Under the pieces are notes generated by a model, which was given only the letters and a program-made list of their open reading frames with translations, was not told the DNA's origin and ran no database searches. From positions 1 through 37,696 of the IMG/VR virus record IMGVR_UViG_3300030333_003867: 37,696 bases of DNA. One strand, 5' to 3'. Position 1 is the stretch's first letter. The number at the start of each line of letters is the position of its first letter. Made by a program: the position numbers and the translations under genes. The DNA comes from a virus. Below are positions 1,814 to 31,499 of the stretch, one piece after another.

Positions 1814-2084
1814 TGATTCATTAAAAGAAAAGGAAGAACACACAGAGAAATTACTTAAATGTAATGCTGACATTAAAAGATTACAGGGCGAGATAAGAAG
1901 GCTGGGTGTGCTGTGCCAAGGTATCAACAAAAGAGTGGGAGGATACCAAGCAAAGGTACAAAAGCTGAAGCTTTCGATTAAGGATGAGGAGAAAAGATTG
2001 GAACAAAAACTGGAAGATAAATGGGTAGAGAAAAAGAGACAGGAATTTAGAAGGAACTGTTACGTCAAAAACTTAAACATATGA
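1716..2084 (+). CDS. Small coiled-coil protein, 122 aa
   Basis: Almost the whole protein is a charged Lys/Glu/Leu helix with heptad-like spacing (for example DDSLKEKEEHTEKLLKC and KVQKLKLSIKDEEKRLEQKL), so a coiled coil that dimerises is likely. It starts inside the previous gene, overlapping it by 98 bases in another frame, and ends with an ATGA overlap into the integrase, so it is probably co-translated with the integrase. Its ribosome site is weak. A role as integrase accessory factor is possible from position alone; there is no family match to support it. Confidence 0.55.
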   Translation: MNLPKEDLDKAVLNSRKIRNANKSIEGWQKRIDDSLKEKEEHTEKLLKCNADIKRLQGEIRRLGVLCQGINKRVGGYQAKVQKLKLSIKDEEKRLEQKLEDKWVEKKRQEFRRNCYVKNLNI

Positions 2085-3151
2085 AATTAAAAAAGAAGAA
2101 AGGAGTGTACTATGTCTCCTTTAAAACTGCTGAAGGAACAAAGGAAGTCAGCACCAGATGCACCAGTAAGGATGCAGCGTTAAGAGTCTGCGAGCAGGCA
2201 GACATAGAGAAGATGGAAGCACTACTCAAGGCGAACTCCTTGAGGGAGGATGTGTTTCAGAAGATGAAGGGTGGCGACAAGATAACCAATGAGCAGGCAA
2301 TCGAGCAGTACAAAGAGTGGTCTGCATCAATTGGTAAGTCTGAAAGAACTGTGCAGGAAACCGTCATCCACATTGAGAAGTTTCTCAAAGCCAAGAAGCT
2401 GATGAAGCAAAGGCCAAGCGCCATCAACGAGAAGCTGTTGTCCAACCATATCAACAGCAAGGCCAGCGACAACAAGGCCAGCACCAGACGTGTGATGTTG
2501 TCTGCCATTGCCAATTACATTGAGTACTGCAACGCCAAGGGGTGGGTGGCTGGCAACCCAGCCAAGCTGGTTAAGATTAACAAGAAGAACCTGTCCCATT
2601 ATCAGAAGGAAACAGAAGAGAAGAAGGTGTTTACTGATGATGAGGTTAAATGGATTGAGGCAATGACCAATGGGTTCTGGAACGTGGCAGTAAACCTAGC
2701 TTACGAGACTGGCCTGCGTATCGGTGACATCTGCCGACTGGAGTGTGCATCCCACAACGTAGGGGAATCAACGCTGGCTGTGTGGACAGAGAAGAGGGAC
2801 AAGCGTGTTGAGCTACCGTTGAGTAAGAAGCTGAACCTCAAGCTGCACAACTGGAAGGGTGACAAGAACAATACAAGGACGAAAGAGTTGTTCTTCCCTA
2901 CTGAGAAGGAGAGGCACGAAGACCCAAAGAGACGTAGCTACCACTCAGTAACATTCAGAAGAATCATGGAGGCTCTGGGTATCGAGGGTAAATCATTCCA
3001 TAGTTTACGAGCTACCTATGCAACCAATGCCAGTATCAATGGCAGACCTTGGTGGGAGATTGCCAAGGACATGGGGCATACAGATGTGGCTACGACTCAG
3101 GTCTACATCAAGGACAAGAACAGGTACAAGCCTGTTGCTAAAGTGGTGTGA
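2081..3151 (+). CDS. int: Phage integrase, tyrosine recombinase family
   Basis: This site-specific recombinase would insert and excise the phage genome by cutting at att sites through a tyrosine-DNA intermediate. The 356-residue length is typical. Residues about 1-60 form a beta-rich arm-binding segment (KKKKGVYYVSFKTAEG), 70-165 the SAM-like core-binding domain, and 185-350 the catalytic domain. All catalytic residues are visible: R213 in ETGLRIGD, K238 or K241 in the beta hairpin, H307 and R310 in HSLR, H333 in MGHTD and nucleophile Y342 in VYIK. It starts in an ATGA overlap with the coiled-coil gene and ends in a GTGA overlap with the putative small terminase gene. That junction with packaging genes is unusual. 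No attP core is identified. Confidence 0.95.
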   Translation: MKLKKKKGVYYVSFKTAEGTKEVSTRCTSKDAALRVCEQADIEKMEALLKANSLREDVFQKMKGGDKITNEQAIEQYKEWSASIGKSERTVQETVIHIEKFLKAKKLMKQRPSAINEKLLSNHINSKASDNKASTRRVMLSAIANYIEYCNAKGWVAGNPAKLVKINKKNLSHYQKETEEKKVFTDDEVKWIEAMTNGFWNVAVNLAYETGLRIGDICRLECASHNVGESTLAVWTEKRDKRVELPLSKKLNLKLHNWKGDKNNTRTKELFFPTEKERHEDPKRRSYHSVTFRRIMEALGIEGKSFHSLRATYATNASINGRPWWEIAKDMGHTDVATTQVYIKDKNRYKPVAKVV

Positions 3152-13971: not shown

Positions 13972-15846
13972 ATGAGTGCTTTAATCACAACGACAGATGT
14001 AGGCGGTAGTCCAGATGTACCAGACGCAACCGTAACAACTAAATGGAAACAATACCTATGGGTAAGGCAAGTTGGTTCGTCAGCAGTTCCAAAGGTTTAT
14101 GTTTGGAATGACTTCGCAACAAGTGATGCCACCTATTTAAAGTGGCAGGAGAAAGCTGACGTAAGTGCTGGGTCAATAGTCAACTCGCAGATCAGCAATA
14201 GTGCTGCGATTGCTGGTAGTAAGCTCGACCTGACAAACACAATTGTCAACGCTCACATCAACTCATCAGCGGCTATTGATTCATCCAAGCTGGCTACGGT
14301 TCCTTACGCAAAGCTGAACCTGTCTGGCGCTGTGACTAATGCGGACTTAGCTGGCAGCATCAGTCAGGATAAACTTGCGGGAAGCATAGGCATAGGAAAG
14401 TTAAGCCTGACAAGTAGTATTACCAATAGCCACATCAATGGCTCTGCGGCAATAGACTCATCGAAGCTTGCCACTATTCCCTACTCGAAACTTACTCTTT
14501 CAAACTCAATCACAAACAATGACGTAGCAACAACTGCTGCCATTAGTTACAACAAGTTATCTGTATCAGATGGCGACATCCCGTTTGCAAAGTTATCGAT
14601 CACTAATGGCGACATTAGCAATCTGAAGATAGACCGACTTTACGAAAAGAGGCTGTCAATTCAGTCAGCACAATCATCAAGTGGGGCAATCCTTCAAGTG
14701 CCAGATTCTGCCAAGCAGTTGGATGGAATTTACAGGGGAGTGTTATCAAGCTCCGGTGACCAATCGATTGTTCTACCTGACCTAAAGAAATTTAACGTAA
14801 AGATTAATAACGCCAACGGTTATTCTAACGGGGCAACAAGCCTTACTGTTGATGCGTTACCTCAAGCCTTGTACGCAGGACAGGTTGTAACATTTTCAAA
14901 TGAAGCCACCTTTACCCTGTCAGCTAACGCTAGTGCGGATGCCACTACAATTACCGGCAAACTAGTGGCGGCATCAACGGTAGTTAATGACAGCTTGGGA
15001 TATGTTTACGATGGCACAAGCTTCAGACTTTCTGTTTACAAGGGAGGCGGAAGCGGCAAAGTGGACATTAGAATAGCCGGACATATTCCATCTGCTGGCA
15101 CATATTCTGGGTCGAACCTGACGCTAACTCTTCCGGCGGGTCACGGTATACTGACAAGCGACAAGGTCACCGTGACTGGAATGACACCTGACTACTACAA
15201 CGTGGTTAAGGCACAGGTCACCAACGCTACTGACACCCAGATAACCTATGTTAATCAGTCCAGCACAACACCGGCTGCAAATGCTACCGGCTTTGGATTA
15301 GCACGAAGATCAGAAAAGTTAGTTAACAACTCAACCGGAGTTCTTTCTGACTCAATAACTGTTATTCCTACAACTGCTTCAGCCGAAAACAAAAAGATTG
15401 TTATTCATTGTATTGCTGACTCAGACAGAGGCGATGGCCAATGGTTGATTGGTGGTATACCGTCATACTCATCCACTACATTGCAGGCTGAAACAGGTGA
15501 AACCTTTTCTAAATCTGTTAAGAAGGATTTACCCACCGCAACCAAGGTGTTTAAGACTACTGTTGATCTGTCTGATGTTGCTACAGGTAACAATAAAACT
15601 ATTTCTGTTCAAAGTGACCACGGAGACACCGCAGCAATTGGAGACAAAATCCTTTTTGAGGGGGGAGGCATCCTTACATTAACTGCCGCTGTATCCGCAT
15701 CAGCGTCTTCGCTTATTGGAAATTTGACTGGCTTTGAAGTTGGTAAATATGAACTTGGTCATCGCATCCCTCGCGAAGATGGAGCTTTGCTTGAGTCGGG
15801 GCGTGAATTCAAGACAGCTACCAACATCGTAATGATCGTACCGTAA
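13972..15846 (+). CDS. Fibre-like virion protein with I-x-SSKL repeats, 624 aa
   Basis: Residues 65-220 are made of short repeats such as SAAIDSSKLATVPYAKLNLS and SGSIxxSQI-type units, a pattern of triple-stranded beta fibre shafts; HINSSAAIDSSKLATVPYAKL (95-115) returns almost unchanged at 154-174. After a short linker come beta domains (240-620) with Gly/Ser/Thr-rich turns and no cysteines of note. It lies between adaptor and nozzle, so it is likely a side fibre or collar fibre bound at the head-tail junction. Its TAA stop shares one base with the ATG of the next gene. Function in host binding is inferred. Confidence 0.7.
   Translation: MSALITTTDVGGSPDVPDATVTTKWKQYLWVRQVGSSAVPKVYVWNDFATSDATYLKWQEKADVSAGSIVNSQISNSAAIAGSKLDLTNTIVNAHINSSAAIDSSKLATVPYAKLNLSGAVTNADLAGSISQDKLAGSIGIGKLSLTSSITNSHINGSAAIDSSKLATIPYSKLTLSNSITNNDVATTAAISYNKLSVSDGDIPFAKLSITNGDISNLKIDRLYEKRLSIQSAQSSSGAILQVPDSAKQLDGIYRGVLSSSGDQSIVLPDLKKFNVKINNANGYSNGATSLTVDALPQALYAGQVVTFSNEATFTLSANASADATTITGKLVAASTVVNDSLGYVYDGTSFRLSVYKGGGSGKVDIRIAGHIPSAGTYSGSNLTLTLPAGHGILTSDKVTVTGMTPDYYNVVKAQVTNATDTQITYVNQSSTTPAANATGFGLARRSEKLVNNSTGVLSDSITVIPTTASAENKKIVIHCIADSDRGDGQWLIGGIPSYSSTTLQAETGETFSKSVKKDLPTATKVFKTTVDLSDVATGNNKTISVQSDHGDTAAIGDKILFEGGGILTLTAAVSASASSLIGNLTGFEVGKYELGHRIPREDGALLESGREFKTATNIVMIVP
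14254..14493 (+). repeat. Two copies of a 63-base fibre-shaft repeat
   Basis: Bases 14254-14316 and 14431-14493 encode 21-residue segments that differ at only three residues (HIN[SG]SAAIDSSKLAT[VI]PY[AS]KL). The DNA is more diverged, mostly at third codon positions, so the protein pattern is kept by selection. Confidence 0.75.
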
Positions 15847-18224
15847 TGCCTCGCTACCGGAGTGTAACAATCAAGCCAAGCCAAGGTGGGCGACTCTTAT
15901 CCAGAGTTTCCGAAGCCGAGGCTGGCATTGAGAATTATACTGTAAAGCGAGACTGGCGGCGTGACTTAGATCGAGAAAAAAAACGAGAGGGTTACGATTG
16001 GTTCTGGGGTAACCAGAGCAGAAGCCTTGATGGCCAGCAATATCCTGGGGGCGAAGGCGTCTCTGAGGAGATCACATTCATTCATTCTGCGAGACGACCT
16101 AACGGAAAGACCGCGCTACTTGCTGGCAGCGCCACAAAACTGTACAGGTTCCTGTCATCCAACGAGGGGTATGCGACAGATTACGCAGAGGATTATACTG
16201 AAACAATCTCTGGCAACTGGACAGAGATAGGCAGCGGGTTTAGTTCGACGGCAAACAGGTGGGAGGCTGTAAATATAAACGGCTACACCGTGTTTAATAA
16301 CGGCGTTGATCTACCCCACTTGTACCGACTTGAATGGGACAAGGCAGAGCCTATCCATGAGATGCGCGAACAAGGCATCAGTAGTGTTGGGACAATCGCA
16401 GCATACAATGGAATATTAATGTGTGCTGACGTGTCTGAGATTTCTCAAACCAATCTCGACACTTTGATGTCACCGAATACAGCAACTGGGGTGACAGCAG
16501 AACAGGTAGGTTCAGTCTTCAGCCAGCCAACAGTTGCCAGCATGGCAGCTAATGCTACCGATGTTGTTGCATCAACATCCATGTTTACTCCAAGCGATGT
16601 AGGTAAATCCATCCGCTTCACTAATGGCTTTAAGACCACAATCGTTGGTGGTTCCGGTACAACGGTACAGGTAGATACGGCTCCGACATCTGCAATAGAA
16701 AACCTCGCCTTCTTCCTTATAGATAACAGGGAAAATTATGGATCTTATACAGTCCGTTGCTTTCCTGGTTATTTTACAGAAAGCATGGTTGGGTTGAAAA
16801 TGCTGTTCGACTCTGGCGAAGTCAGGACGATAACAAAGTTCATTGATGGTCAGACAGCTATGGTCGATCTTGATTCTCCAATTGCTGATGGAACCTTCAA
16901 ATTAGAGAATCCAGATTCGTACAAAGCTTACACCGGCAACACAACTAGGCGGCAGTACCGATTAGCGTGGAGCTTGCCTGACTATCCAGAGGAGTGGGGA
17001 GTTGTGCTGTCAGGTTCGATCACCAAGGGTGACGATAAGCTCACGTTGAAGTGGCCTGCGAAGTCCATAAAGACCGGCGACAGCTTGACGATTACTGGGG
17101 CTGGAGTAAACGGCGGTAACTTGGTGGCTACAGTACAATTTATTTCAGTTGCTGGAGCAGAGTTGACTCTTGATAAGACAGCAGACACCACGGTAACAAG
17201 CGCGACAGTTCAGCCAACGACAGCTATCGGCAGCATCATTGGATTTGATGACATCCAAGATGACGGCAGCGGTATTCTCAAGATGGCAGAGTTGCAGGGC
17301 AACTTGGTAGTTTACAGGGACACATCGATTTTCTTGTTCCAATACACAGGCAACACCACTAGTCCCTTTAATGTAACCAAGCTGGCAATCCCTTCCGGTA
17401 AATCTCTCTACTATCGGCACACGCTTGTGAACATCAATGGACGTGAACATGTGTATGCTGGTCGATCTGGCTTTTACGAGTTCGATCTTTCATCTCGCAT
17501 ACCAAGAGCAATTCCAGCGGCGGATGCTGTGTCTGATAAGTTTTTTAATACAGCGAAAATTGAGGACACCGAGAAAATCTTTTCGGTTCACAATACGCCT
17601 ACTCAGGAAGTTTGGGTTATTGGTACAGGAACAGATGACAAGTGTCTGTGTTACGACTACAAATACGACACATTCTCTACCACAAATATCCCAGCCACAG
17701 CCGCAGCAAGTGTAAAGAAACCAGAGACTGAGTTGGTCAATGAGGAATCAGAAGACTGGTTTGTTTTTGGTGACACCAACGGGGTGGTGTTTACTTATGG
17801 GAAGGTGGACAAAGAGTTAAAGTGGGGTGACGACTCGACGGTAGGGAAATCTATTTACTATCGGCGGATTAACTCTGCCAAAGAAAAGTACGATAGCATT
17901 TTAAAGTTTGGGTTGTACAACTTTGGGAACGCATTAGACGAAAAGGATTTGCGAGGTTATGTGCTGCACCTAAGCAGCAAGACACCAGGAAATCCAGAGG
18001 TCACAGTAAAAATTTATGGAACGAGAAACGAAGCTGAAGACACCACGCTGCTGGGAAGCCAGACGCTTACAGAGGCTGAAGCAAAGAGCCTTATCGCGTG
18101 TTATTTTAGACAACATTTGTTTCAAGACGAAATACAAGCAAGCGGCATGATCGATGTTCAATTTAGTGGAAGAACATTTGATGCTGCGAGCATAGATACT
18201 GAATCATTAATAAGGAAATCATAA
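15846..18224 (+). CDS. Tail nozzle protein (tail tubular protein B-like)
   Basis: A 792-residue protein directly after the connector genes, in the size range of T7 gp12 and P22 gp10 type nozzles that form the distal tail tube. The N-terminal segment (KPSQGGRLLSRVSEAEAGIENYTVKRDW region) and the beta-propeller-like part with LQGNLVVYRDTSIFLFQY, REHVYAGRSGFYEFDLSSR and TPTQEVWVIGTG fit that family. The tube would extend the DNA channel and act in penetration of the outer membrane. The start shares one base with the previous stop. Fold assignment is by pattern and context. Confidence 0.75.
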   Translation: MPRYRSVTIKPSQGGRLLSRVSEAEAGIENYTVKRDWRRDLDREKKREGYDWFWGNQSRSLDGQQYPGGEGVSEEITFIHSARRPNGKTALLAGSATKLYRFLSSNEGYATDYAEDYTETISGNWTEIGSGFSSTANRWEAVNINGYTVFNNGVDLPHLYRLEWDKAEPIHEMREQGISSVGTIAAYNGILMCADVSEISQTNLDTLMSPNTATGVTAEQVGSVFSQPTVASMAANATDVVASTSMFTPSDVGKSIRFTNGFKTTIVGGSGTTVQVDTAPTSAIENLAFFLIDNRENYGSYTVRCFPGYFTESMVGLKMLFDSGEVRTITKFIDGQTAMVDLDSPIADGTFKLENPDSYKAYTGNTTRRQYRLAWSLPDYPEEWGVVLSGSITKGDDKLTLKWPAKSIKTGDSLTITGAGVNGGNLVATVQFISVAGAELTLDKTADTTVTSATVQPTTAIGSIIGFDDIQDDGSGILKMAELQGNLVVYRDTSIFLFQYTGNTTSPFNVTKLAIPSGKSLYYRHTLVNINGREHVYAGRSGFYEFDLSSRIPRAIPAADAVSDKFFNTAKIEDTEKIFSVHNTPTQEVWVIGTGTDDKCLCYDYKYDTFSTTNIPATAAASVKKPETELVNEESEDWFVFGDTNGVVFTYGKVDKELKWGDDSTVGKSIYYRRINSAKEKYDSILKFGLYNFGNALDEKDLRGYVLHLSSKTPGNPEVTVKIYGTRNEAEDTTLLGSQTLTEAEAKSLIACYFRQHLFQDEIQASGMIDVQFSGRTFDAASIDTESLIRKS

Positions 18225-19309
18225 TGCCAATTGTAGATTTAAATTACAGGAAGAACCAAACTGCTGCATTAACCTCTACTCAGGTTGATCGGAACTTTGA
18301 GTTGGTGCAGGACTTTACTAACGGACTTGAGACTCTGTACAACACAGCGTTCAACCAAGACGGCACATTTAAGGTTCCAGTTACCGCAACCAACATACAA
18401 TCCGATTCGCATTTCTACGCAGAAGACACGTCAAGTAACGATGATTATGCAATCACTTTGTCGCCTGCTATCACAGCGTACAAAGACGGAATGGTTGTTG
18501 CCTTTAAGGCCAAGACTACAAATACGGGGGCTGCTTCACTTAATGTAAATTCAGTAGGTGCAAAAAGTATTTTTAAACGAAAAGATATTCCGCTTGAGGA
18601 TGGTGATATTGTCGCTGGTCAGATTGTAGAGGCTAGGTACAACTCAACAACGGATGGTTTTGAAGTCACTACACCATTATCAAATCAGCTTGGTTTAAAG
18701 ACCGGAACCAAGGGCCAAAAAATACGGGTAGATAACGAGGGTAAAATAGAATTTTACACGCCTACCATAGCGGCTGCCGAATTTACAGGTCACGTCGCCC
18801 CATATTGGGGTGCAATACAAGGTGGTAATTTATATGGCACGGACAAAGAAGACACTAATGTTTCTACCAATTTACAAAGTGGCGGGTCTTCTGTGTATGA
18901 TGATATTGATGTCCTTAAATTACATGAGCTTTCTAATCAAGGTGGTGACTATCCTATATATGTCCAAGAAAATAAAAATGTGGAGTTAAAATTTGATGAC
19001 GATAAGTTAAACACAGCAGGAGGCGGGGTGAAAATTGCTGAAACTTCTGGTTTAAATATATTAGTTCAAGGGCAAGGGGGGGATCGGTTTCATGGAATGT
19101 TAAATATATGGAATCCAAACACTTTAAAATATGCACCTTTATATATGTTTGAAGTAGGGAACTGGGAAAACACAGGGTATCAAAGTGTTCACACGATGAT
19201 AACCTGCCCAAGAATGGATAGTAACGAATATAAATTTAAATTAATTTGTCAAAATGTAAGTTCTGCTTCACTTTCATTTATTGGATTTAAGATCATAGGT
19301 CATTATTAA
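18224..19309 (+). CDS. Tail fibre with common shaft domain and AT-rich tip, 361 aa
   Basis: Residues 73-151 (YAITLSPAITAYKDGMVVAF through AGQIVEARYNSTTDGFEV) are a domain I recognise from many tail fibres. The N-terminal 50 residues probably attach to the tail. The tip (about 200-361) is beta-rich, with no recognised family, and ends in a hydrophobic strand (SLSFIGFKIIGHY). By hand count the tip coding DNA (18841-19310) is about one third G+C, clearly lower than the flanking genes, suggesting the receptor-binding tip came from elsewhere. It shares one base with the nozzle gene end. Confidence 0.8.
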   Translation: MPIVDLNYRKNQTAALTSTQVDRNFELVQDFTNGLETLYNTAFNQDGTFKVPVTATNIQSDSHFYAEDTSSNDDYAITLSPAITAYKDGMVVAFKAKTTNTGAASLNVNSVGAKSIFKRKDIPLEDGDIVAGQIVEARYNSTTDGFEVTTPLSNQLGLKTGTKGQKIRVDNEGKIEFYTPTIAAAEFTGHVAPYWGAIQGGNLYGTDKEDTNVSTNLQSGGSSVYDDIDVLKLHELSNQGGDYPIYVQENKNVELKFDDDKLNTAGGGVKIAETSGLNILVQGQGGDRFHGMLNIWNPNTLKYAPLYMFEVGNWENTGYQSVHTMITCPRMDSNEYKFKLICQNVSSASLSFIGFKIIGHY

Positions 19310-19311
19310 TT

Positions 19312-19914
19312 TTGGATATTACTCTGCGAATTGCTGACGGTTTCGCCCCTAACGCAGAACAGATTAGGGAGGAAATATTGTCCGCAAATTTCACGGACGA
19401 GGTTGGCCCAGACGGTTACAACTACACAGGCATCTGCCTAGACAATCAACCTGACCTAACCAAAGAGATTGCTGCGCTTGTTGGGTTTGATGTTGAAATA
19501 AAACTCTCATGCTTTCGGGTAAGTTATGAAAAAGAAATGCCGCATAACCATGTGCATTCTGATGGGATATGCGCCAAGTACGCAGGCATACTTTACCTAA
19601 ACCCAAACCATCAACGCAGAGGAGGTACTGCCTTTTGGAGGCATAAGGTAGGCGGATGGGATTCATTGCCAGCCGATGACGAGCTAATAAAAGACGGCAG
19701 AGATCCAGTTGAATTTAATTTGGATATGGTCGAGGAGTGGCAGCGCAAAGATCAATGGGCCATGTGTGGATTTGCCGAGATGAAATTCAACAGGTTCATA
19801 ACCTATCCCACAAAAATGTTTCACAGTCGTTACCCTCACGAAGCCTTCGGCACTACACTCTCGGATGGCAGACTAATATGGACAGTATTTTATGATCGTA
19901 AGGGAAGCCAATGA
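19312..19914 (+). CDS. 2OG-Fe(II) oxygenase-like protein, 200 aa
   Basis: The order and spacing H82-S-D84, then H171 (KMFHSRYP) and R187 (SDGRLIWTVFY) fit the iron-binding H-x-D...H triad and the 2-oxoglutarate-binding Arg of the prolyl-hydroxylase-like superfamily. The strand KYAGILYLNP followed by GGTAFW is typical of these double-stranded beta helices. It would hydroxylate or otherwise oxidise a protein or small molecule. Placed between a fibre and the ejection proteins, a virion protein or host-surface substrate is possible. The start is TTG two bases after the previous stop, as no ATG is available near. Its end overlaps the acetyltransferase gene. Confidence 0.75.
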   Translation: MDITLRIADGFAPNAEQIREEILSANFTDEVGPDGYNYTGICLDNQPDLTKEIAALVGFDVEIKLSCFRVSYEKEMPHNHVHSDGICAKYAGILYLNPNHQRRGGTAFWRHKVGGWDSLPADDELIKDGRDPVEFNLDMVEEWQRKDQWAMCGFAEMKFNRFITYPTKMFHSRYPHEAFGTTLSDGRLIWTVFYDRKGSQ

Positions 19915-20329
19915 TGACGACTACAAACAGTTAGATAGCCTCTGCCAAAAATTCTTCAAAGAGGGTGGCCTAAAAGGAGTACCTAAGAACTTTTCCGCAG
20001 GACTGAGGAAACATGTGGATGCAGGCTTTGCCCTGTGCCTTGTCCTTGTTCGCGATGGTGTAGTGCTGGGTACAATTGGGGGTATGATTAGTGAAGACTT
20101 CATAACAGGCGATCTGATATGCACCGAAATGTTCTGGTACGTCGAACCTCAATACAGGCGTCATGGCATTCGATTACACAAGGCGCTGGAAGCGGAGGCA
20201 AAAAATCGCGGGTGTGAACGAATTTACATGGTACATTTAGCAAAGCTAAAGGCTGATAAACTAGAAAGGTACTATAAGAGATGTGGCTACGAACCTTTAG
20301 AAATTTTTTACAGCAAAGATTTAACATGA
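19892..20329 (+). CDS. GNAT-family N-acetyltransferase
   Basis: Residues 75-110 hold the acetyl-CoA binding motif A: a beta strand with acidic end (ICTEMFWYVEPQYRR) and the loop R90-H-G-I-R94 leading into a helix (LHKALEAEAKNRG). Residues 125-134 (ERYYKRCGYEP) are motif B. The strand before (VVLGTIGGMI) completes the fold, and the length of 145 is normal. It would transfer an acetyl group to an amine of unknown identity. It overlaps the oxygenase-like gene by 23 bases in another frame, so the two are probably made together and may modify the same target. Confidence 0.9.
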   Translation: MIVREANDDDYKQLDSLCQKFFKEGGLKGVPKNFSAGLRKHVDAGFALCLVLVRDGVVLGTIGGMISEDFITGDLICTEMFWYVEPQYRRHGIRLHKALEAEAKNRGCERIYMVHLAKLKADKLERYYKRCGYEPLEIFYSKDLT

Positions 20330-20342
20330 GAAAGGAATTAAC

Positions 20343-21398
20343 ATGGCAGCGGTAACAGCAGCAACGGCAGCGGTAGTTAGTGCTGGTGCTTCAGTAGTAG
20401 GTTCAGCGCGAGCAGGCAAGGAGGCTAAGAAGGGACGCCGCGCCGCCAGAGAGCAAGCTGCGTTAGATCGAGAGTTTAATTACAAAATGTTTCAAGAGGG
20501 GCGTGGCTCTAAGGGTAGTGCCAAACTTCCTCTTTACATGAAGGATTCCAGCGGACGACTAATCGAGCCAATAGCAGGAACGCAAGCCGCCGATATCTTT
20601 TCTATTCCTCTCGACAAAACGCCCAGAGAAAGACTCAGGGAGTTTGAAGATATTTATGCTGCTGAAGAACCGTTGCGTGAGCAGGGCATGGATACCCTGC
20701 GAGGCATCTATGAAGGCATAGGCGGAATTAGTGATTATGAAAGAAGGCGTCGAGAAAATGTTGCCCCAGTATCTGAAGCTGAACGGCAGCAGGCGCAAAC
20801 CATAGGGCAATCTGCTGAGTTGGCATTAGCCCAGCAACTCAACGCACAACGTGCCAGAGATGCTATGGCTGGCATATCCGGTAGAGCTAACCTTGGTTCA
20901 CAATTAGCAAGTGCTAACATTAGGCAAAACGCAGCGCAGCAACAGGCTGGCGCATTGGCAGAAGCTAACCTAGCAGACGCTCGACGTAACGCTGCGATTT
21001 CAGAGGATGCATATCGGATGCAGTTGGACAATCCGCAACTTGCAGATTCGATTGCAGCCATGCGAATAGCATCACAGCAACAACCCTACAATCAGTTGGT
21101 TGAACAAGCAGGGCGACAATACTCTGTGTTACAGCCATTTGAGATAGCACCAGGAGGATTTAGAGCCACGCCGTTGCCTGCTCCTGCGGTTGACACGTCA
21201 GGGTCAGCTTTAGCTGGCGGTATAGCTGGTGCAGCAAATGCGTTCGGCCAGTACGCTCGCAACAAGCAGATGATGGACATGCTGAATCAGCAGCAATTTA
21301 TGAGACAGCCAACATACTACGGCACAAACCCAGATGGTACTAACGTCACCTCTGGTCAAGCCGAAGTTGGCACAGGTTTTGACTTTGGTTCAATATAA
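20343..21398 (+). CDS. Internal virion (ejection) protein, small, 351 aa
   Basis: Residues 1-25 are an Ala/Gly/Val stretch (AAVTAATAAVVSAGASVVGSA), able to cross or enter a membrane, followed by a basic patch. The middle is long Ala/Gln-rich helix (ELALAQQLNAQRARDAMAG). A second Gly/Ala segment (GSALAGGIAGAANAFG) lies near 285-300. This is the pattern of T7 gp14-like ejection proteins that form the channel into the host. An AAAGGAA ribosome site lies before the ATG. It is the first of three ejection-type genes in a row. Confidence 0.7.
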   Translation: MAAVTAATAAVVSAGASVVGSARAGKEAKKGRRAAREQAALDREFNYKMFQEGRGSKGSAKLPLYMKDSSGRLIEPIAGTQAADIFSIPLDKTPRERLREFEDIYAAEEPLREQGMDTLRGIYEGIGGISDYERRRRENVAPVSEAERQQAQTIGQSAELALAQQLNAQRARDAMAGISGRANLGSQLASANIRQNAAQQQAGALAEANLADARRNAAISEDAYRMQLDNPQLADSIAAMRIASQQQPYNQLVEQAGRQYSVLQPFEIAPGGFRATPLPAPAVDTSGSALAGGIAGAANAFGQYARNKQMMDMLNQQQFMRQPTYYGTNPDGTNVTSGQAEVGTGFDFGSI

Positions 21399-21422: not shown

Positions 21423-23039
21423 ATGGCTACTGAAAGAGAAGTTTTTGAAATGGCAAGACAGGGTGTGCAGCAGGCTGCTGCCCCCTTGGTGGGAATGATG
21501 TCGGACAGGGTTGCCATGAAGGCGCAAGAACTAGACCGGCAACGCAAATTAGCTGACGACCAACGACGTAGGGACGAGGCAAGGCAAGATTGGATTGAAA
21601 AATTCAACATGCAAACCGCCGCTGCGAAAGCAGCAGCTAAGGCTTCAAGAGAATTTACTACGTCTGAACGCATTGCTCAAAACAAGGCTGCTAAAGAAGC
21701 AGCCAAGACTTCACGGGACTTTACTAGGTCAGAACGTATTGCTCGTCAGAATTTTCAAGCGACGGAATCGGATTGGAATTTTTACAGGAACCGCATGGTT
21801 CAGCTTGATGAGAGGGGTTTTGCTATTCAGCAGGATGAGAAGGAGATGCGACTCAAGGCTGCTCAGTACGGGATGGTAAATTCCAATGAAGCTTCTATCG
21901 AAGATGTTTATAAATACATCTATAATAAAGCCCCAGAAGAGTTGGAGAAATTTAAGAAGCGTCAGCGAGATGCTTTCAGAGCATTGAATCCTGAAATTCA
22001 TCAAAACTATGAAAACTTATCTGAGCAACGAAATGCAATCTATGGGCAAATCGGTGAGTTAATTAGAAATAGTTCCGGCCCAACTGAAGACGAAATACTC
22101 AAGAGCCTTCTACCTAAATTAATTGCCGACCCAATTTTCAAATTAAACGAAACGGATATTGAGACAATTAGGACTGAGGGACTGGCGGGTTTGGCTAGAC
22201 TTATTCAGAATGATGAGGCAGCGCAACAACAACTAGGAACTTTGATGGAGCAAGTTTCAGAAGAGGTTGGTGACGCAAAAGCAAAACAAGTTTCAAATGA
22301 GATTTCATTACGGATGGAGCAAGTGCGAGTAATTGATTCCAATATGAAAAGGATAGAAACGGTAAATCCATCTATCGGCCTTGAATCTACAACTGTAATT
22401 AATGAAAGAACTTCGCGAAATTTCTTAAATAATCGAAACCAAGATGCTGTTCAGACAGGGAGGTTCAATTTACCTCCGCAAAGTGGGGCTACTCCGGCAG
22501 TAACTCCACCTCCTGCTCCAGCAACTCCGGCAACTTCGACAAATCAAAGCACAACTCCTCCTCCCGCCTTTACTCCTGCCGCAGCACCTTCCGATGCGGA
22601 CAGCCCTGCCGCTGGAGGCTTTGGCCCTGTTATCCCTTCTACTCCCACGTTGGACATGAGCCGCTTTGGGCCGTTATCTGATGACATGGATGCTCTTGAA
22701 AAAGAGCGAGCTACGCTTGAAGGCAATGTTCAGCGTCAGAATGACATGATGAGTAAAGCTATTAAACGTGGTAATCAGCCTAATGACTCGGTAGTTAAAT
22801 CTTTGGCTGAAAACCAACAGCGAATCAGCGACATCGAGAATATGATTTTCCGGTTGAACCAAGACAACATTCGTCCCGTTCCGCTTGAAGGTGGTGACCC
22901 AGGATTTAGGGGTGTTGTTTCTGGCAACCCAGAGACTTCTGAGGAAAGGTCGATGCGTATCCGCCGACTCCTAGATGAATCAAACAGGAGAACTCGCGAG
23001 GAACTACGCAGATCACCATTCTACGGCGGCGGTCAATAA
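21423..23039 (+). CDS. Internal virion (ejection) protein, medium, 538 aa
   Basis: The N-terminal 110 residues are charged helix with a 22-residue repeat (SREFTTSERIAQNKAAKEAAK then SRDFTRSERIARQN). The middle is long helix. Residues about 355-420 are a flexible Pro/Ala/Thr linker (TPPPAPATPATS), then another coiled-coil segment (LEKERATLEGNVQRQNDMM). It corresponds in place to T7 gp15, which builds the ejection tube with its neighbours. No enzymatic motif is seen. Confidence 0.65.
   Translation: MATEREVFEMARQGVQQAAAPLVGMMSDRVAMKAQELDRQRKLADDQRRRDEARQDWIEKFNMQTAAAKAAAKASREFTTSERIAQNKAAKEAAKTSRDFTRSERIARQNFQATESDWNFYRNRMVQLDERGFAIQQDEKEMRLKAAQYGMVNSNEASIEDVYKYIYNKAPEELEKFKKRQRDAFRALNPEIHQNYENLSEQRNAIYGQIGELIRNSSGPTEDEILKSLLPKLIADPIFKLNETDIETIRTEGLAGLARLIQNDEAAQQQLGTLMEQVSEEVGDAKAKQVSNEISLRMEQVRVIDSNMKRIETVNPSIGLESTTVINERTSRNFLNNRNQDAVQTGRFNLPPQSGATPAVTPPPAPATPATSTNQSTTPPPAFTPAAAPSDADSPAAGGFGPVIPSTPTLDMSRFGPLSDDMDALEKERATLEGNVQRQNDMMSKAIKRGNQPNDSVVKSLAENQQRISDIENMIFRLNQDNIRPVPLEGGDPGFRGVVSGNPETSEERSMRIRRLLDESNRRTREELRRSPFYGGGQ
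21618..21752 (+). repeat. 66-base tandem repeat in the medium ejection gene
   Basis: Two 22-codon units encode Ala/Lys helix followed by SR[ED]FT[TR]SERIA[QR]. It looks like an in-frame duplication that lengthens a helix. Confidence 0.65.
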
Positions 23040-23048
23040 TGCACGACG

Positions 23049-26000
23049 ATGCCCAACACTTTAGTAGATCATTACCGTTCTCGGTTTCCTGACGATAGCA
23101 TTAGCGATCAAGGGATTATTGGCGGATTCATTCGCCAGCATGGCGAGTCTGCAATCAAGACACAATACCCTGACGCCTACTCTCAGTTCATAAAGCAAAG
23201 ACGGAAAGATGATGTAGACAGGTATAACCGTGTCAATCCGTCTGGCCCTTTCGGAGAGTTTTGGAAGGCAACCAAACGCACCACAATAGGATTAGGAGAG
23301 ACTGCGTTAGGCGGACTAGGTTTAGGAGCGGGGGCTGTAGGCTGGGAGTCTGCTCGCGACTACCTAATGATGAAGGCAATGGAGGTTGGGCAGGATGCCC
23401 AAGACATTTCGTTAGCCGCAGTCGAGGCTGAGTGGGACGACGTTGATGGTCTTTATGAATCACTACAATATGGAGCCGCAGTCTTTGGTGAAGCAGCGCC
23501 ATCCTTGGTGGAGTCAATTGCTGCTGCCGGTGCTGGTCTTTTGGTGGGTAGCGCTGCCGCTCCTGGCCCTGGTTCTGTTGCTGGTGGGGTGGGCGGATTC
23601 TTCGCTAAGAACGCTGTTAAAAATCTTCTCAAGAAAAAGGTTCGCGAACAGGTAAGAGAGAACCTAGAGAAACAGGTAGGGCGAAAGCTTACTGATGACG
23701 CACTAAAATACACCCTGCTTAAAACTGCTTTGTCTGGAAAAGGTGCAGGCAAGGACATGATCAAGGCACAAATGAAAGCCGCTAGTGCGAAGCTGGGCAG
23801 CACAGTTGCCACCACCTTAAACAGCTACGGTTTATCATCCGGTGAAATTTACAACTCGTTAGCAAGCAACCCTAACGTAGACCCAGATGACGCAATCGAC
23901 ATTGCGCTTGTCGGAGGTCTTGTTGCTGCTGTCCCTGACACATTCCTGCCTTCATACATTATGAAGCAGTCAGGAATCGTCGATGCTCTTGCCGGAACAG
24001 TTAAGGGGCAGATGGCAAAGGAGCATGTGAAGAGGAGATTTAATGGCTATGTTGGGAGACTAGCCAAGCAGGCTGCTATCACGATACCGGCTGAAGGGGC
24101 GACTGAAGGCTTCCAAGAGTTAGTTAACATTGCCGCTGAGAAATACGGAGACAAGACAAGCGAACACTTTAAAGACACGGGGAGACTGTTCGCTCCTATG
24201 GATATTTATGATGACCTAACCGATGAGGAAAAAGGTCGAATCGATAGGGCAATAGTAGTTGGCGCTGCCGCCGGAAGCATGGGTGCTGTTGGTGCAGCCA
24301 CAAGAAGAACGGCAGAGGATACTGATGACACAGACGTAACACCAACAGAGCCAGCAGAGGATGTAGTCGATGAAATTTACGCTCCAACAGATGAGGAGAA
24401 AGCAATTATCACAGCCTTGGTTGCTAGGGAGGTAGCTGGAGGTGACGTTAAACAGGAGCTTTCTGATGCCAATGTTTTCAGTAACAGGATTCTGACAAGA
24501 TTTTATGTTTCTGAGAAAAAAAGGGCTTTTGAAGAACAGGGTTTTCGTTTGGATGCTAAAAAGGATTCAGATGAAAAAGCAGAGGTAGATCAAGACTACA
24601 TTAACTTCATTAAAGAACAAATTATCGTAGTCAAAAACTCAGACCTGTCTCCAAAGATTCGTAAGTACCTAATTGCACAACTCAATGAGAAATTAAAAGC
24701 AGCAAAGAAAGGGGCGAAACCTGACGCCACGACATCGATGTCTATGGCTGGCGAGGCAGTCGAAGTTAAGTCGTTACTCGATGAGCAGTTGGGCTTACTG
24801 GAACCACAGCCGGAAGCTGAACCTGTAGCTGAAACCCGTGAGCCGATAGCAATGCTGCCGGAGTCAGTCGGGGCGGAAGAAATTCGGAATAGAGAACGAG
24901 ATCAGAAGTGGCAGAAAGAGGACAACGCCAAGGAAGCTGAGAAATTACAGGCACAGAAAACTGAGGATGAAAAGAAACTCGCATTACTTAACGAGCGATT
25001 AGCCCAAGTAAGAGAAGCCGCTGTACAAAAAGAAGGTGATCGGCGTACTGCCGAAACCAATTTAGCTGCGATTTGGGCAGCCGCTTCTAAATTAGATAGA
25101 CAAGAGGATAATGCAGCACAAAAAGCTTTTGAAGAGAAGCAGAAGTTTGCAAAAGCTGCTGAGAAATTAAGACAGAAAGAAGCTAAAGCTGCTGAGAAAA
25201 TTAAAGAAACAGCAGATAAGAAACCGGAAACCACAGAGGAGGAAACATCTACACAAACCCCTCAAGAAACAAAGGAGGCTGTCAACCCAAGTCACATTGA
25301 AGACATAGAAAGAAACCCATTAGATGGGCGGTTAAAAAGTGATACTGGCAATGAGAACATAGATTCAAGTATTAGGGCTGCTGGTGCTAAAAGCTGGCTA
25401 TCTCTTCCTGTCGATGAAATGAAGCAAATTATCGACAGCGGAAAATTCGATATACTAGGTGAGCTTTTAACAAAAAGAAGTACTAAGAAAAAAGACGGGA
25501 AAGGCGCGTCAAAGAGAGACTCAAGGAGGTTGACTGCATTGTTTCGCCCCAGCACAGGTGAGGTTTGGGTTGTTAAAACTTGGAAAGATAAAGGAAGTGT
25601 TTGGTTTGCTGGGCCGGACGGATCAAGGACGAAACTGGAAACCGCTTTGGCTGGTGGAAATCTGATTCCTATCGCAAGTATTTTAACAAAGAGTGATTCC
25701 AGCGTTAAGGACTGGAACACATTCGCTAATAGAAATGATTTCGATTTAACATTCTCTGAACAAGTCGCAAACGAAAAATTAGATGCAGAAATTGATACAG
25801 AAATTAAACAGCGTCCACCTCAACCTAATTCGGTTAGTGAGAAAGAGGCACAAAGTTTACCCTCAAACAAAAAGGTAAAAGCCTTATTCGACGCAATCGT
25901 TCGTGCCGCAGTAGCCAGAGGCTTGAACATTGAAATCTTTCAGAATGAACAGGCGGCAATGGAAGGTGAGTATGGTGCGTATGCAAATGCCTTTAAATTA

Positions 26001-29000
26001 ATTAGGCTGGCACTAGCAGACTCAGCTAATCCGACAAGCGAAACGATACGACTTCTATTGCATGAGGTGGCTCATGCTGTGTTTGCCAATGAGCCGGTTC
26101 ACATTCGTGAGTCGATTCACTCTGCCATCAACAACATGAGCGACAAGGCACTCCAGCTTGAGGGCTTTACGATGGCTATACCGGAGGGAGTGAACGAAGC
26201 AGAGGTTATACAAGAGGAACGCTTGGTCGAAACAACCTCGATCAATTTACAACAGGAAGGGTTTGACCCAACCAACGCTCAATCGACAGCGCAGAAACTC
26301 TTTAGGTTTCTAAAGGACATTTACTACAGGGCGTCTATGGCAATCCAACGAGCCACAGGGCTTAACATTGCCAACGATCAGTTGCCTCTTCTTTATTTCC
26401 AGAACCGCATGAGGATGTTCCTTGCTGGAGACAAGGATGTTTTCAGCTACCTCAGTTTCTTGGGTGGGCCTAAACCAAACCACACAGAGACTGTGGGGAT
26501 GTCACGCAAGGTGCATGACTCTTCCATAGAAATAGACATCAGCTTTCGGGACAAGTTCGTGGACTATCCAGAGGTCGTCCCTGACAACCAACTTGCTGCA
26601 AGGCTTGGCGTCAGACAACGGCCTAGTCCCAGCAGGAGAACCACAGCGCCGGAACCTATCGTACAGTATGGAGAGGAATACGATAGCGTACAGATGAAGA
26701 CGGGAGAGGTGTACACTCTCAAGCTCATCGATGACGCTTATCGTAAAATGTACGAGGCATGGCGGGTTAGCGGAGCCACGCCAATGACATACGAGGAGTG
26801 GCTGGCTAGTGACATGATGGGCAAGGAAGACCCTGCCGTTTTGATTGCTGAGATAAACAGCGAACTGGCAGCTAACGGGCATGAGCAGATAAACCCAGAC
26901 GATGTAACGAGTGTTAGCCTTGAGCAAAACAAGCAGCTACCGAAAGCCAAGGAGGCTGCTTATGTTCATATCAGAAGCGTCAGGGCCAAGCTGCAAAACA
27001 ACTACATAAACGGTCAGCAGAACCTAGACCCGTCCAAACCAAAGTCGCTTTCTGAAAAGGTTAAGAAAGCAAAGGAGGCTGTCGTTAAATGGTTGCAGCG
27101 ATATACCGATGCCGATGTTTCACTCAACCAGATTTACACCATGCTGGATGAGGCTGTCTCTGAACTTCGCGATGACATGCGGCAGATCGGCAACGCATCG
27201 AGGCGCAAAGGTGAACTTTATCAGATCATCAAGCAGCTTGAAGGCAAGACGCCAGAGGCGAAGGCTGTTCAGCAAGTTGAAAAGAAATTACTTAAACTCG
27301 TCAGGGAAACCAGAGACGGCAAAGGCAACTTCTTCGACATGGTCGAGGCAGCGGCAAGAGTTTTGCAGGACAGAGGAGACAGCGAGTCTCGCTGGAACAC
27401 TTTAACTGTTACTCAAATAGCTGAGTTACTTGATGCATCTGGTGTCGATATTCTTCAGCCTCTAATCAAAGACCGCCAAATGCTGGCGGCTGTAATTGCT
27501 ATTGCCAAAAAGGATTCACTCGTAATGGATTTACTCTCTCTTCGACGCGATAAAGAGAGAGCCGGAGTTGACGAAATACTCAAAGAGTTTCTGGCAAAAG
27601 GGCGAGCAGACGAGAACACGATCAGACATGCTACCAGGAGAATCCCCAGACTTGAAAAAGTTGCGAATCGTATTTTGCTGCAACTGAACACCAAGCAGAA
27701 GGCGCTTGAATCTGATCAAAGAGAATTACAAAAACAGACTGAGCGAGTTTTGTTTTGGGATTCGGTAGCTGAAACTATCGATGACACAATGGGTATGCTG
27801 GAGGAAGACCTTGGCATAGAGGACGCTGATAAAAACGTACAGGCATTTGCTTTGTACGACGGCGCGAAGATTCCTGTTCCAGCCAGCCCCAACACTTCCA
27901 TCGAAGACCTTAAAGATCCATCGAAACAAAAGGAAGTTTCACTCAAGGCCAGCAAGTTTTCTCAAGATCAAATCCGCAGATACTATCAGCAGATTAAGAC
28001 GTGGCTAGTAGCCAACGCTGACAAACCTCAGTCCGCCACCTACCGGCAAATGGAACGTATCGCAGATGAGTTGGCGATTGCCGGTGCTGACCTAATGGAC
28101 AAGAGCATTAGGCGGGTCGTGGGACAAAAACTTGCTGACTCATTTAGCAAATCATTATTCAGCATAGGCTCTGGCATCTCTCGCTTAATGGGCAGGAGGA
28201 TTGAGCGTTTCCAAAACGAATGGCAACGCATGGAGAAGGAGGCTGATCTCATTGGTTCACAATGGACACTCGCTGAAAAGGCGTTGATGAACGAATTGCT
28301 AAAAGGTCAGTTCTACAAAATTGATAGGAGACAGGAATTTAGAGAAGACTGGTATCAAAAAGCGTTACAGTTTTTTGAGAAACGCCCAGACCTCCTTAAC
28401 TACAGCAAAGATAGTAAGGAGATGCGGCGAAATGCATACAACCAATACCTTAATAGATTATCAGAATCTAATGAGTTTGCTCAGATCATAAAGAACAATG
28501 ATAAAGTCAGGGATTTGTTTTACAAATACATGGACGCAACTGCGAAGAGTTCTGGTTGGTTTGACCAACAGCGCAGTCGTCTTCGTATCAAGCTCGCGTC
28601 TGATCCGAAATATGGATACCTCCGTGAATCAATTGGCGAACCCATATTTACGGTAATGCGGAGACTGTCTGGTCACGCCTCTCTCATCTACGAGATAATG
28701 AGAGAAAGCGGGTGGCTGGAAATTAAATCTGACCAACCATTTGACGACACAAGACCGCTGTTTTCAAAAACAGTCTGGCGGGATTTTGTGAAGCCAATCG
28801 TGCAGAGAGAAGGACGGTCGATGATCGGCTCTGTACACAGGCCAGATGGGGTTCAGAGATTAGCTAGACGCAGCAACCTAATTGTAGCATATGAGAACAC
28901 GGCAGTTAATGAAGCTGGCTTTTATTCAATAAAAGACTTTGCCGAGAAGCTTTACTCTCTTGAAGAAGGTGACCCGACGGACATGGAATCAAGACAGCAA

Positions 29001-31499
29001 TTCATTGAGCAAACCTTCTCAACATTTAACGACATTTTTCAGACGCTTCACGATCAGAAAAAAGAATTCAATCAAGCCAATAACGACGGGAATATGGGAG
29101 TGCCAATGCGCGTTCTCATGGATGCCCGAAAGTCTGAGGAACTACCCGCTGAGTTCTTGGAGCATGTGACATTTGATTCCCGCACCATGAAGCAGATGGC
29201 CAAAGTCATGGCAATGGAATCTCAGTATGGACGTAACATGTCCACAATGATTACTGGGTTTGACCAGCTAATACAGGAACTATCAGACAAGGCCAAGCTC
29301 TATGAATCTATTGTTAAGGAAGTGGGTCTTGCTAACCCAAGGGTAGGCAGGGGAGGGAAAACAAAACTAATAAAGGACGAATTTAAGGCGCGTGGTCTGA
29401 ACTACGATGTTTACAGCCAAGCTACAAAGAACTTGGACTACGCTACTAGCTTGAGAGATCAATGGATAGCGTTCACTTCAGCAGAAGGTCACGTCTCAAC
29501 AGAAAACCGCATGGCCCAAGAAGTTGTTGGGACTATGGCAGGAGCCACCGTCCAAGGCTTTGGCACACTCCTGCTTGATTTAACTGCCCCTATCATTCAA
29601 GGCCAAACAAAGATGACAGGAGTGGGCGGTACTAAATTTGCAGCATCGATTTACAAGAAAGCATTTGGCGAAGTGCTAGGTAGCCTGTGGCAGTTGTTCG
29701 GAAAAACTCTTGGCTTGAAAGCGGACAACGCAAGGCGTCGTGCGAGGAACGGTTATATTTTTGCAGACGCTCATATGAGGATGCAGGACCAATTTACCAG
29801 CGCCTTAAATGAGGTAAACGAAAACGACAGACTCCTGGTCGAAGAGGGAGACACTCCTGTCCAAGCCTTTGGAAAACGAACCAAGCGTGGGCTGCTTAAC
29901 TTCACTAGAATTATACGAACATTGATAGGTTCTGGAGTTGGCAAATCCAAGCTGGCTGAAAACGATGCAGCTTTCTCAACAGTCAAACCACAAGCTCCGT
30001 ACACATGGGGGAGTGAGATTGTACACGCTGCTGCGGTTGATGCGTATGTGGAAAAGTTTGAGGCAATACTCTCACGGGCTGTGGAGTATTTTCAAAATGC
30101 AGAGAACGAGAGTGACTTAACGAATCCTACTTTTGCATTCACTATTAAAAAACACGCTGAAGATTTAGGCTTCGGTAAACGCCTTGGCTTATTCGATAGC
30201 TCGCTTGATCTGGAGTATTTTTTAAATGCACTAAACGAACAGGGATTGTCCTTGGAACAACTGGCGAGAGAGTACATTGAAAGATCAAGTGCAGATTCAG
30301 AAGCCCCCCTTATTACAGACAACAATTTCCACCACCTAGCCGCACTTGCCAACAGGGACATAATGTTGGCAAACAATGTGACTACTCAGTCTAAATTTTT
30401 AATCACAGGCAAGGTTGCCCCAGTTCTTCAAAACCTAGTCGGGTGGTCGATCAGAAGAAGCGGCGACTTGATAAGGATGATGAGAAAACCAGGTGGTGAG
30501 GGTAAGGTGTTTGATAAAAATTGGAGAGACGCAATGATGCGACTCACTTTTGTGATGGTTCCTACAGCGTTAGGCGCTGCTGTAATTAAGGACTGGTGGG
30601 ATGAAGAGGTGTACGGGAAAAGCCCAAATGTTCTACGCTTTAGAGATGCTCAAACAGCAGGAGATTATTTTGTTACAGCACTTGATAGGACAGCAAGAGT
30701 TGGTGTCATGGGTTTTGCCGGAGATGCAGCTAACAGTTATTTCAATGTTCAAACAGGCAGAGGTTTCAGTTTAGATTCTAGGATATATGCTGTGTCATCC
30801 ATATTTCAGTTGGCTGGCGCATTATCGAATGCTCGCACACAAAACTTCGCCAACTATGAGACTGTTTACAGGCCAATGATTCAAGCATTAGGCGGCTCTG
30901 GTTTTCTCCAGAACATGACCACCTACAAGAATTTCTTTGAGACAATCAGCGGGGCTGACCTTGAGATTCAAGAGGATAGAATTGTAGGCCGAATTAATCT
31001 TGAGAACATAATCCGATCAGCAGGACGAGGGTCAAAGAACCTCGATGTAAGATCGATGGGTGGAAGTGGGATGCGCTATTTGTCCAACCCAATACGCCCT
31101 CACATTAAGGACATGATCACGGCTGCGTACAGCAATGATGCGAGAGACTTCTACAATTCCTACAGACAAGCCTTAGAGGCAGCTAGGTTGGCAGGCAAGG
31201 CTGACCCACAGGATTCTGTAGCCCGCAGCTACGGGGCATACAATCCCCTACGAAAGGTTTTCAAGACTGACCCAACTGAGGGTGAGTACGTCCAGTTGCT
31301 GTCCAACATGGACAACACCACGGCTCGCACCGTCCGGCAGGGGCTGGATTTGTTTAACAAATATGGCGAGCAGATTGGGTCACGCGCATTCTACGGCAAA
31401 GCGGAAAGAAAAAAGAAATCAAGAGGAGTGAAGATGACCGGCAAACTGCCAACCCTTTCTGACTACAGACTGGCAGCTACCCTGCCTAATTTCCGTTGA
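23049..31499 (+). CDS. Giant ejection/polyvalent virion protein with zincin-like domain, 2816 aa
   Basis: This is the largest gene here, third in the ejection group, where T7 has its large internal protein gp16. Gly/Ala hydrophobic segments lie near 79-98, 151-185, 281-300 and 400-418, so the N-terminus could insert into the host membrane. EGATEGFQE at about 349-357 resembles a motif I recall from giant phage proteins. Residues about 607-734 are a long Lys/Glu/Ala coiled coil. H1005-E-V-A-H1009 in LLLHEVAHAVF is a zincin motif, with a candidate third ligand Glu near 1055. The rest is mostly helical. I see no lysozyme or transglycosylase motif. It is likely injected with DNA; the metallopeptidase could cleave host or virion proteins. 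Confidence 0.8.
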   Translation: MPNTLVDHYRSRFPDDSISDQGIIGGFIRQHGESAIKTQYPDAYSQFIKQRRKDDVDRYNRVNPSGPFGEFWKATKRTTIGLGETALGGLGLGAGAVGWESARDYLMMKAMEVGQDAQDISLAAVEAEWDDVDGLYESLQYGAAVFGEAAPSLVESIAAAGAGLLVGSAAAPGPGSVAGGVGGFFAKNAVKNLLKKKVREQVRENLEKQVGRKLTDDALKYTLLKTALSGKGAGKDMIKAQMKAASAKLGSTVATTLNSYGLSSGEIYNSLASNPNVDPDDAIDIALVGGLVAAVPDTFLPSYIMKQSGIVDALAGTVKGQMAKEHVKRRFNGYVGRLAKQAAITIPAEGATEGFQELVNIAAEKYGDKTSEHFKDTGRLFAPMDIYDDLTDEEKGRIDRAIVVGAAAGSMGAVGAATRRTAEDTDDTDVTPTEPAEDVVDEIYAPTDEEKAIITALVAREVAGGDVKQELSDANVFSNRILTRFYVSEKKRAFEEQGFRLDAKKDSDEKAEVDQDYINFIKEQIIVVKNSDLSPKIRKYLIAQLNEKLKAAKKGAKPDATTSMSMAGEAVEVKSLLDEQLGLLEPQPEAEPVAETREPIAMLPESVGAEEIRNRERDQKWQKEDNAKEAEKLQAQKTEDEKKLALLNERLAQVREAAVQKEGDRRTAETNLAAIWAAASKLDRQEDNAAQKAFEEKQKFAKAAEKLRQKEAKAAEKIKETADKKPETTEEETSTQTPQETKEAVNPSHIEDIERNPLDGRLKSDTGNENIDSSIRAAGAKSWLSLPVDEMKQIIDSGKFDILGELLTKRSTKKKDGKGASKRDSRRLTALFRPSTGEVWVVKTWKDKGSVWFAGPDGSRTKLETALAGGNLIPIASILTKSDSSVKDWNTFANRNDFDLTFSEQVANEKLDAEIDTEIKQRPPQPNSVSEKEAQSLPSNKKVKALFDAIVRAAVARGLNIEIFQNEQAAMEGEYGAYANAFKLIRLALADSANPTSETIRLLLHEVAHAVFANEPVHIRESIHSAINNMSDKALQLEGFTMAIPEGVNEAEVIQEERLVETTSINLQQEGFDPTNAQSTAQKLFRFLKDIYYRASMAIQRATGLNIANDQLPLLYFQNRMRMFLAGDKDVFSYLSFLGGPKPNHTETVGMSRKVHDSSIEIDISFRDKFVDYPEVVPDNQLAARLGVRQRPSPSRRTTAPEPIVQYGEEYDSVQMKTGEVYTLKLIDDAYRKMYEAWRVSGATPMTYEEWLASDMMGKEDPAVLIAEINSELAANGHEQINPDDVTSVSLEQNKQLPKAKEAAYVHIRSVRAKLQNNYINGQQNLDPSKPKSLSEKVKKAKEAVVKWLQRYTDADVSLNQIYTMLDEAVSELRDDMRQIGNASRRKGELYQIIKQLEGKTPEAKAVQQVEKKLLKLVRETRDGKGNFFDMVEAAARVLQDRGDSESRWNTLTVTQIAELLDASGVDILQPLIKDRQMLAAVIAIAKKDSLVMDLLSLRRDKERAGVDEILKEFLAKGRADENTIRHATRRIPRLEKVANRILLQLNTKQKALESDQRELQKQTERVLFWDSVAETIDDTMGMLEEDLGIEDADKNVQAFALYDGAKIPVPASPNTSIEDLKDPSKQKEVSLKASKFSQDQIRRYYQQIKTWLVANADKPQSATYRQMERIADELAIAGADLMDKSIRRVVGQKLADSFSKSLFSIGSGISRLMGRRIERFQNEWQRMEKEADLIGSQWTLAEKALMNELLKGQFYKIDRRQEFREDWYQKALQFFEKRPDLLNYSKDSKEMRRNAYNQYLNRLSESNEFAQIIKNNDKVRDLFYKYMDATAKSSGWFDQQRSRLRIKLASDPKYGYLRESIGEPIFTVMRRLSGHASLIYEIMRESGWLEIKSDQPFDDTRPLFSKTVWRDFVKPIVQREGRSMIGSVHRPDGVQRLARRSNLIVAYENTAVNEAGFYSIKDFAEKLYSLEEGDPTDMESRQQFIEQTFSTFNDIFQTLHDQKKEFNQANNDGNMGVPMRVLMDARKSEELPAEFLEHVTFDSRTMKQMAKVMAMESQYGRNMSTMITGFDQLIQELSDKAKLYESIVKEVGLANPRVGRGGKTKLIKDEFKARGLNYDVYSQATKNLDYATSLRDQWIAFTSAEGHVSTENRMAQEVVGTMAGATVQGFGTLLLDLTAPIIQGQTKMTGVGGTKFAASIYKKAFGEVLGSLWQLFGKTLGLKADNARRRARNGYIFADAHMRMQDQFTSALNEVNENDRLLVEEGDTPVQAFGKRTKRGLLNFTRIIRTLIGSGVGKSKLAENDAAFSTVKPQAPYTWGSEIVHAAAVDAYVEKFEAILSRAVEYFQNAENESDLTNPTFAFTIKKHAEDLGFGKRLGLFDSSLDLEYFLNALNEQGLSLEQLAREYIERSSADSEAPLITDNNFHHLAALANRDIMLANNVTTQSKFLITGKVAPVLQNLVGWSIRRSGDLIRMMRKPGGEGKVFDKNWRDAMMRLTFVMVPTALGAAVIKDWWDEEVYGKSPNVLRFRDAQTAGDYFVTALDRTARVGVMGFAGDAANSYFNVQTGRGFSLDSRIYAVSSIFQLAGALSNARTQNFANYETVYRPMIQALGGSGFLQNMTTYKNFFETISGADLEIQEDRIVGRINLENIIRSAGRGSKNLDVRSMGGSGMRYLSNPIRPHIKDMITAAYSNDARDFYNSYRQALEAARLAGKADPQDSVARSYGAYNPLRKVFKTDPTEGEYVQLLSNMDNTTARTVRQGLDLFNKYGEQIGSRAFYGKAERKKKSRGVKMTGKLPTLSDYRLAATLPNFR
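31472..31492 (+). terminator. Terminator-like hairpin at the end of the giant gene
   Basis: GGCAG (31472-31476) pairs with CTGCC (31482-31486) around a 5-base loop, followed by TAATTT. The hairpin lies in the last codons of the giant gene. The stem is short and the T-run only three bases, so termination would be weak. As in the other two cassettes, the TTTCC motif follows within four bases. Confidence 0.4.

Follow-up and report, generated by a model that had tools for sequence, protein, structure and literature searches.

In phage T7, gene 13 is placed between its neighbours in the order gp12-gp13-gp14 and encodes a probable scaffold, or internal virion protein A, of the Pfam family PF11090. 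One study (PMC6775973) has proposed that the cobavirus GNAT pc40 is the counterpart of T7 gp13 and functions in virion morphogenesis. In Cobavirus and Zobellviridae genomes (SIO1 pc40, P12053L gp44) the tail nozzle is followed by the GNAT and then by internal virion proteins, with neither a fibre nor an oxygenase between nozzle and GNAT. The GNAT of SP6 (gp28; Molineuxvirinae), like those of Nerthus and BD1, lies upstream of the portal gene. These GNATs belong to phrog_1249 (tested on CRP-4 for the Cobavirus and Zobellviridae group).

The cyanophage oxygenases of the DUF6445 family (phrog_1644; S-WAM2 gp157, syn9 gp52 and P-SSM2) form the second group of relatives. Some of them lie beside tail fibres or within arrays of 2OG oxygenases, and no GNAT is annotated adjacent to them in the regions examined. 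Phage GNAT and oxygenase genes have been treated by other authors as genes of host metabolism (PMC6918029, PMC11288001).

The DNA analysed here, called the window, is an IMG/VR virus record of 37,696 bases taken at its full length. The initial annotation had described a probable 2OG-Fe(II) oxygenase gene overlapping a GNAT gene, placed between a tail fibre and the ejection proteins. The two ORFs, their overlap and their location are borne out, the last by a phrog_4900 match upstream and by position and N-terminal character downstream (Table 1).

Table 1. Features of the late gene region of the window surrounding the oxygenase and GNAT genes
Feature	Coordinates	Strand	Description
Nozzle / tail-tube-B-like virion protein	15846..18224	+	792 aa; gp12 position; phrog_3287 virion structural protein, E 1.9e-20
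Tail-fibre-like gene, short	18224..19309	+	361 aa; phrog_4900 tail protein, E 2.7e-11
Oxygenase ORF	19312..19914	+	200 aa; TTG start; DUF6445 / phrog_1644, probable 2OG-Fe(II) oxygenase
ORF overlap	19892..19914	+	23 nt common to the oxygenase and GNAT frames
GNAT ORF	19892..20329	+	145 aa; ATG start; GNAT-fold, phrog_1249; T7 gp13 slot
Putative gp14-like ejection protein	20343..21398	+	351 aa; assigned from position and hydrophobic Ala-rich N-terminus
Putative gp15-position protein	21423..23039	+	538 aa; assigned from position
gp16-position giant protein	23049..31499	+	2816 aa; placed by position

Both ORFs recur in two related genomes (L002 and L003), where the gene order and the 23-nt overlap are kept and where, as in the window, the TTG start of the oxygenase lies 2 nt past the fibre stop codon. 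Both proteins are 97-98% identical between the window and L002; in L003 the identity is 72% for the oxygenase and 83% for the GNAT. In these comparisons nonsynonymous changes are far fewer than synonymous ones in both ORFs and, together with the recurrence, this identifies them as real genes and not chance frames. Relative to L003, dN amounts to 0.114 for the GNAT, 0.197 for the oxygenase, 0.211 for the nozzle and 0.317 for the fibre, with synonymous sites nearly saturated. Of these four genes, the GNAT is thus under the strongest constraint and the fibre changes fastest. The pS of the oxygenase relative to L002 (0.04) is far below those of the nozzle and the GNAT (0.15 each), which hints at recent recombination of the oxygenase segment, although the changes are few and the signal is uncertain.

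The overlap is consistent with translational coupling of the oxygenase and the GNAT. The region gave no promoter signal exceeding chance, and co-expression with the virion genes is therefore likely, a feature that does not by itself reveal function. Near the left end of the window, a tyrosine integrase gene (2081-3151) is located just upstream of the terminase gene; owing to the integrase, the phage may be temperate. At the opposite end, an ORF of more than 1400 aa (33427-37695) continues past the window end and has no family match.

The proteins encoded downstream of the GNAT show no strong family match, and their assignment as ejection proteins is based on position and N-terminal character. 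The N-terminus of the gp14-like protein resembles those of T7 gp14 and of the gp14-like proteins in the genomes L019 and L020, and profile support for this identity is weak. The giant ORF in the gp16 position matched no family in Pfam or PHROG; the first 45 residues of its product recur after the gp15-like gene in L019.

The GNAT assignment is supported by several profile searches. The ORF matches the Pfam model Acetyltransf_1 (PF00583) with 40.3 bits (cut-off 20.7, E 4.2e-10) and phrog_1249 with an E-value of 1.2e-21. In the PDB, the family profile matched 58 distinct sequences, nearly all of them acetyltransferases, with GNATs at 2.4e-13. The structure model of the GNAT is poor (mean pLDDT 56): the active site cannot be judged from it, and its Foldseek matches, mostly GNATs with low TM scores, weigh little. 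PADLOC returned no match.

The position of the GNAT gene is directly comparable to that of T7 gene 13, as both immediately precede gp14 or, in the window, the putative gp14-like gene. The same arrangement recurs in seven other phages. In P12053L, KZY1, L020, CRP-4, CRP-810, Pan3 and L119, a GNAT unaccompanied by the DUF6445 oxygenase comes directly after a gene for a nozzle, needle or fibre protein and directly before ejection-type genes. The slot is not universal, since the GNAT of SP6, Nerthus and BD1 lies elsewhere. In P22, the slot between the needle and the first ejection protein holds gene 14 (8911-9366 in L026; DUF2824), a small morphogenesis gene. Similarity searches gave no support for P22 gene 14 as a GNAT, and its PDB match to a putative glyoxalase is weak (E 0.008).

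Whole-record searches add a second line of evidence. In T7 they detect gp13 but no GNAT; in SP6 and Nerthus, a GNAT but no gp13. BD1, P12053L and KZY1, each of which carries a GNAT, likewise lack gp13. In the phages tested (T7 and five GNAT phages), GNAT and gp13 are mutually exclusive.

The third line is a comparison of profiles. With hhalign, a T7 gp13 profile built from six sequences scores 36.7 against a phage GNAT profile of seven sequences, in an alignment spanning only 99 columns; the best of 100 column-shuffled controls reaches 17.1 and unrelated profiles score 10-15. On the other hand, Pfam places gp13 and the GNATs in different families, gp13 is not matched by the Pfam GNAT models, and a PDB search with the gp13 profile found no GNAT. 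The window GNAT, in turn, has no match to PF11090, so it is read as a protein that may work like gp13 and not as a member of that family. Taken at the level of profiles, gp13 and the GNATs are likely homologous. The equivalence extends the published suggestion and is not new for the cobaviruses.

The reading that we consider probable is that the oxygenase and the GNAT are adjacent late genes, each with a history of its own, and not a dedicated pair, the GNAT being of the gp13 type and the oxygenase an accessory. The GNAT would serve the window phage as an ejection or morphogenesis factor. From its slot, its exclusion of gp13 and the profile homology, we infer that the GNAT is produced immediately before the gp14-like protein and that it most likely works on, or together with, the ejection proteins while the virion is being assembled. 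It may acetylate one of them or, given its degenerate motif, bind as a non-catalytic chaperone. The oxygenase, which would have been inserted between the fibre and the GNAT in the phage group of the window only, would most likely have as its substrate a tail or fibre protein expressed alongside it, or else a surface compound, as its neighbourhood suggests.

The second of these modes, a GNAT that is purely structural or a chaperone and does not transfer acetyl groups, is a sub-case of the favoured reading that we hold only tentatively; should T7 gp13 be a degenerate GNAT, it would be a protein of this kind. The canonical form of motif A, Q/R-x-x-G-x-G/A, which contacts the acetyl-CoA pyrophosphate, is not kept across the GNAT family. 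In the window and its two relatives the motif reads RRHGIR(L) and is two residues shorter than in most aligned members, the Cobavirus and Zobellviridae loop being longer and that of Pan3 shorter still. The degenerate motif makes catalysis by the window GNAT uncertain, and the aligned T7 gp13 has no recognisable motif A altogether. However, the Pfam GNAT scores stand well over the cut-off and GNATs tolerate motif changes. To our knowledge, no residue is universally catalytic among the GNATs. The window protein is placed by its sequence in the GNAT fold family, and an active acetyltransferase is possible.

The oxygenase matches Pfam DUF6445 (PF20043) with 34.9 bits (cut-off 24, E 2e-8) and phrog_1644 with an E-value of 1.4e-20. 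It is about 26-32% identical to the cyanophage proteins, with which it has the HxD...H...R signature in common. In an alignment of six diverse family members, H82xD84...H171...R187 is invariant, which corresponds to the 2-His-1-carboxylate triad and distal arginine expected of a 2OG-Fe(II) oxygenase. Two DUF6445 members show weak similarity to 2OG-FeII_Oxy_3, and a weak alignment around the HxD was obtained with a profile built from other 2OG oxygenases of phages (score 30.1 versus a shuffled maximum of 20.9). On these sequence grounds, the DUF6445 protein is probably an active 2OG-Fe(II) oxygenase. The AlphaFold2 model (mean pLDDT 36) is too poor to show the double-stranded beta-helix fold. 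The phrog_1644 label of minor coat protein finds no support in anything observed here. One scan of the genome contigs returned no oxygenase relatives, and the literature search found nothing on DUF6445, nor on virion acetylation combined with prolyl hydroxylation.

The neighbourhoods of the DUF6445 relatives are mixed. One adjoins the fibre genes of S-WAM2, another lies between fibre-like repeat proteins in AG-345-O18, and those of ACG-2014j and S-SSM4 are within a few kb of fibres. Others are found amid DNA or metabolic genes (P-HM1, P-SSM2 and Flavobacterium phages) or inside oxygenase arrays (syn9 and S-CREM1). The link between oxygenase and fibre is consequently suggestive and not general. 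Several distinct 2OG-oxygenase-like genes also occur in the marine virus AG-345-E08 (L011), among glycosyltransferase-like genes and around an RCC1-like repeat protein. There, a 145-aa gene overlapping the end of an oxygenase was considered as a GNAT and rejected, as it encodes a Cys-rich protein unlike GNATs.

The initial annotation had also proposed that the two genes form a paired modification unit, which would be found together beside fibres in other phages. In such a coupled unit, hydroxylation by the oxygenase and acetylation by the GNAT would fall on one target, either a virion protein such as the fibre or a compound of the host surface. This part of the proposal was not borne out and appears improbable. 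The genes occur together only in the window, L002 and L003, and apart in their other relatives: the oxygenase family without a GNAT in cyanophages and Flavobacterium phages, and the GNAT with no DUF6445 gene nearby at nine further loci, the T7 region likewise having no DUF6445 gene. The GNAT slot is, moreover, unchanged with or without a preceding fibre gene, and the degenerate motif A speaks against acetylation. In favour of coupling are the conserved order and overlap in three genomes, the proximity of some DUF6445 genes to fibres or fibre-like repeats, and certain CRP-810-type subgroups that carry GNATs and 2OG oxygenases together, whereas other such subgroups have one or the other alone (PMC11288001). 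The fixed order and overlap leave room for a functional link within the three-genome group. A mobile two-gene cassette, on the other hand, was rejected, as the pair is present in only three related genomes. A gp13-slot role accounts for the position of the GNAT better than the paired unit does.

The more distant genomes L018 and L019, whose nozzle is 42% identical, have neither the oxygenase nor the GNAT. Their slot before the gp14-like gene (7260-7703 in L018, 8902-9345 in L019) is occupied by an unrelated 147-aa protein with no Pfam match. Just upstream, the fibre C-termini differ between near-identical flanks (5721-7258 in L018 versus 7785-8879 in L019; one long gene versus two), and this region is a fibre-swapping spot.

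The least probable alternative is that both are auxiliary metabolic genes which act on host metabolites (the 2-oxoglutarate level, amino acids or antibiotics) and came to lie in the late operon by chance: marine-phage GNATs and 2OG oxygenases have been so interpreted (PMC6918029, PMC3037559, PMC9602691) and some DUF6445 relatives do lie among DNA and metabolic genes, but the GNAT stands at a virion-gene junction across phage families, gp13 fills that slot in T7, and the resistance and metabolic enzyme models of NCBIfam gave no match above cut-off. The view of the initial annotation that these are not spare metabolic genes holds, as the oxygenase and the GNAT belong to the virion gene block. 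A more far-reaching proposal, to which we give little credence at present, would see a GNAT fold with a partly or wholly lost catalytic site as a shared assembly factor of ejection proteins, from T7 to the zobelliviruses and the window group, coupled in the last to a fibre-linked oxygenase that hydroxylates a virion protein.

The identities of the two genes are ordinary; their arrangement is real and informative. The oxygenase is one further uncharacterised DUF6445 gene adjoining a fibre, and the equivalence of GNAT and gp13 is the part worth following. GNATs and 2OG oxygenases of phages are commonly entered as auxiliary metabolic genes. For the GNAT, a role in virion assembly is indicated instead by its conserved slot, its exclusion of gp13 and the profile similarity between gp13 and the GNATs. 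This reading would make the obscure gene 13 of T7 directly testable.
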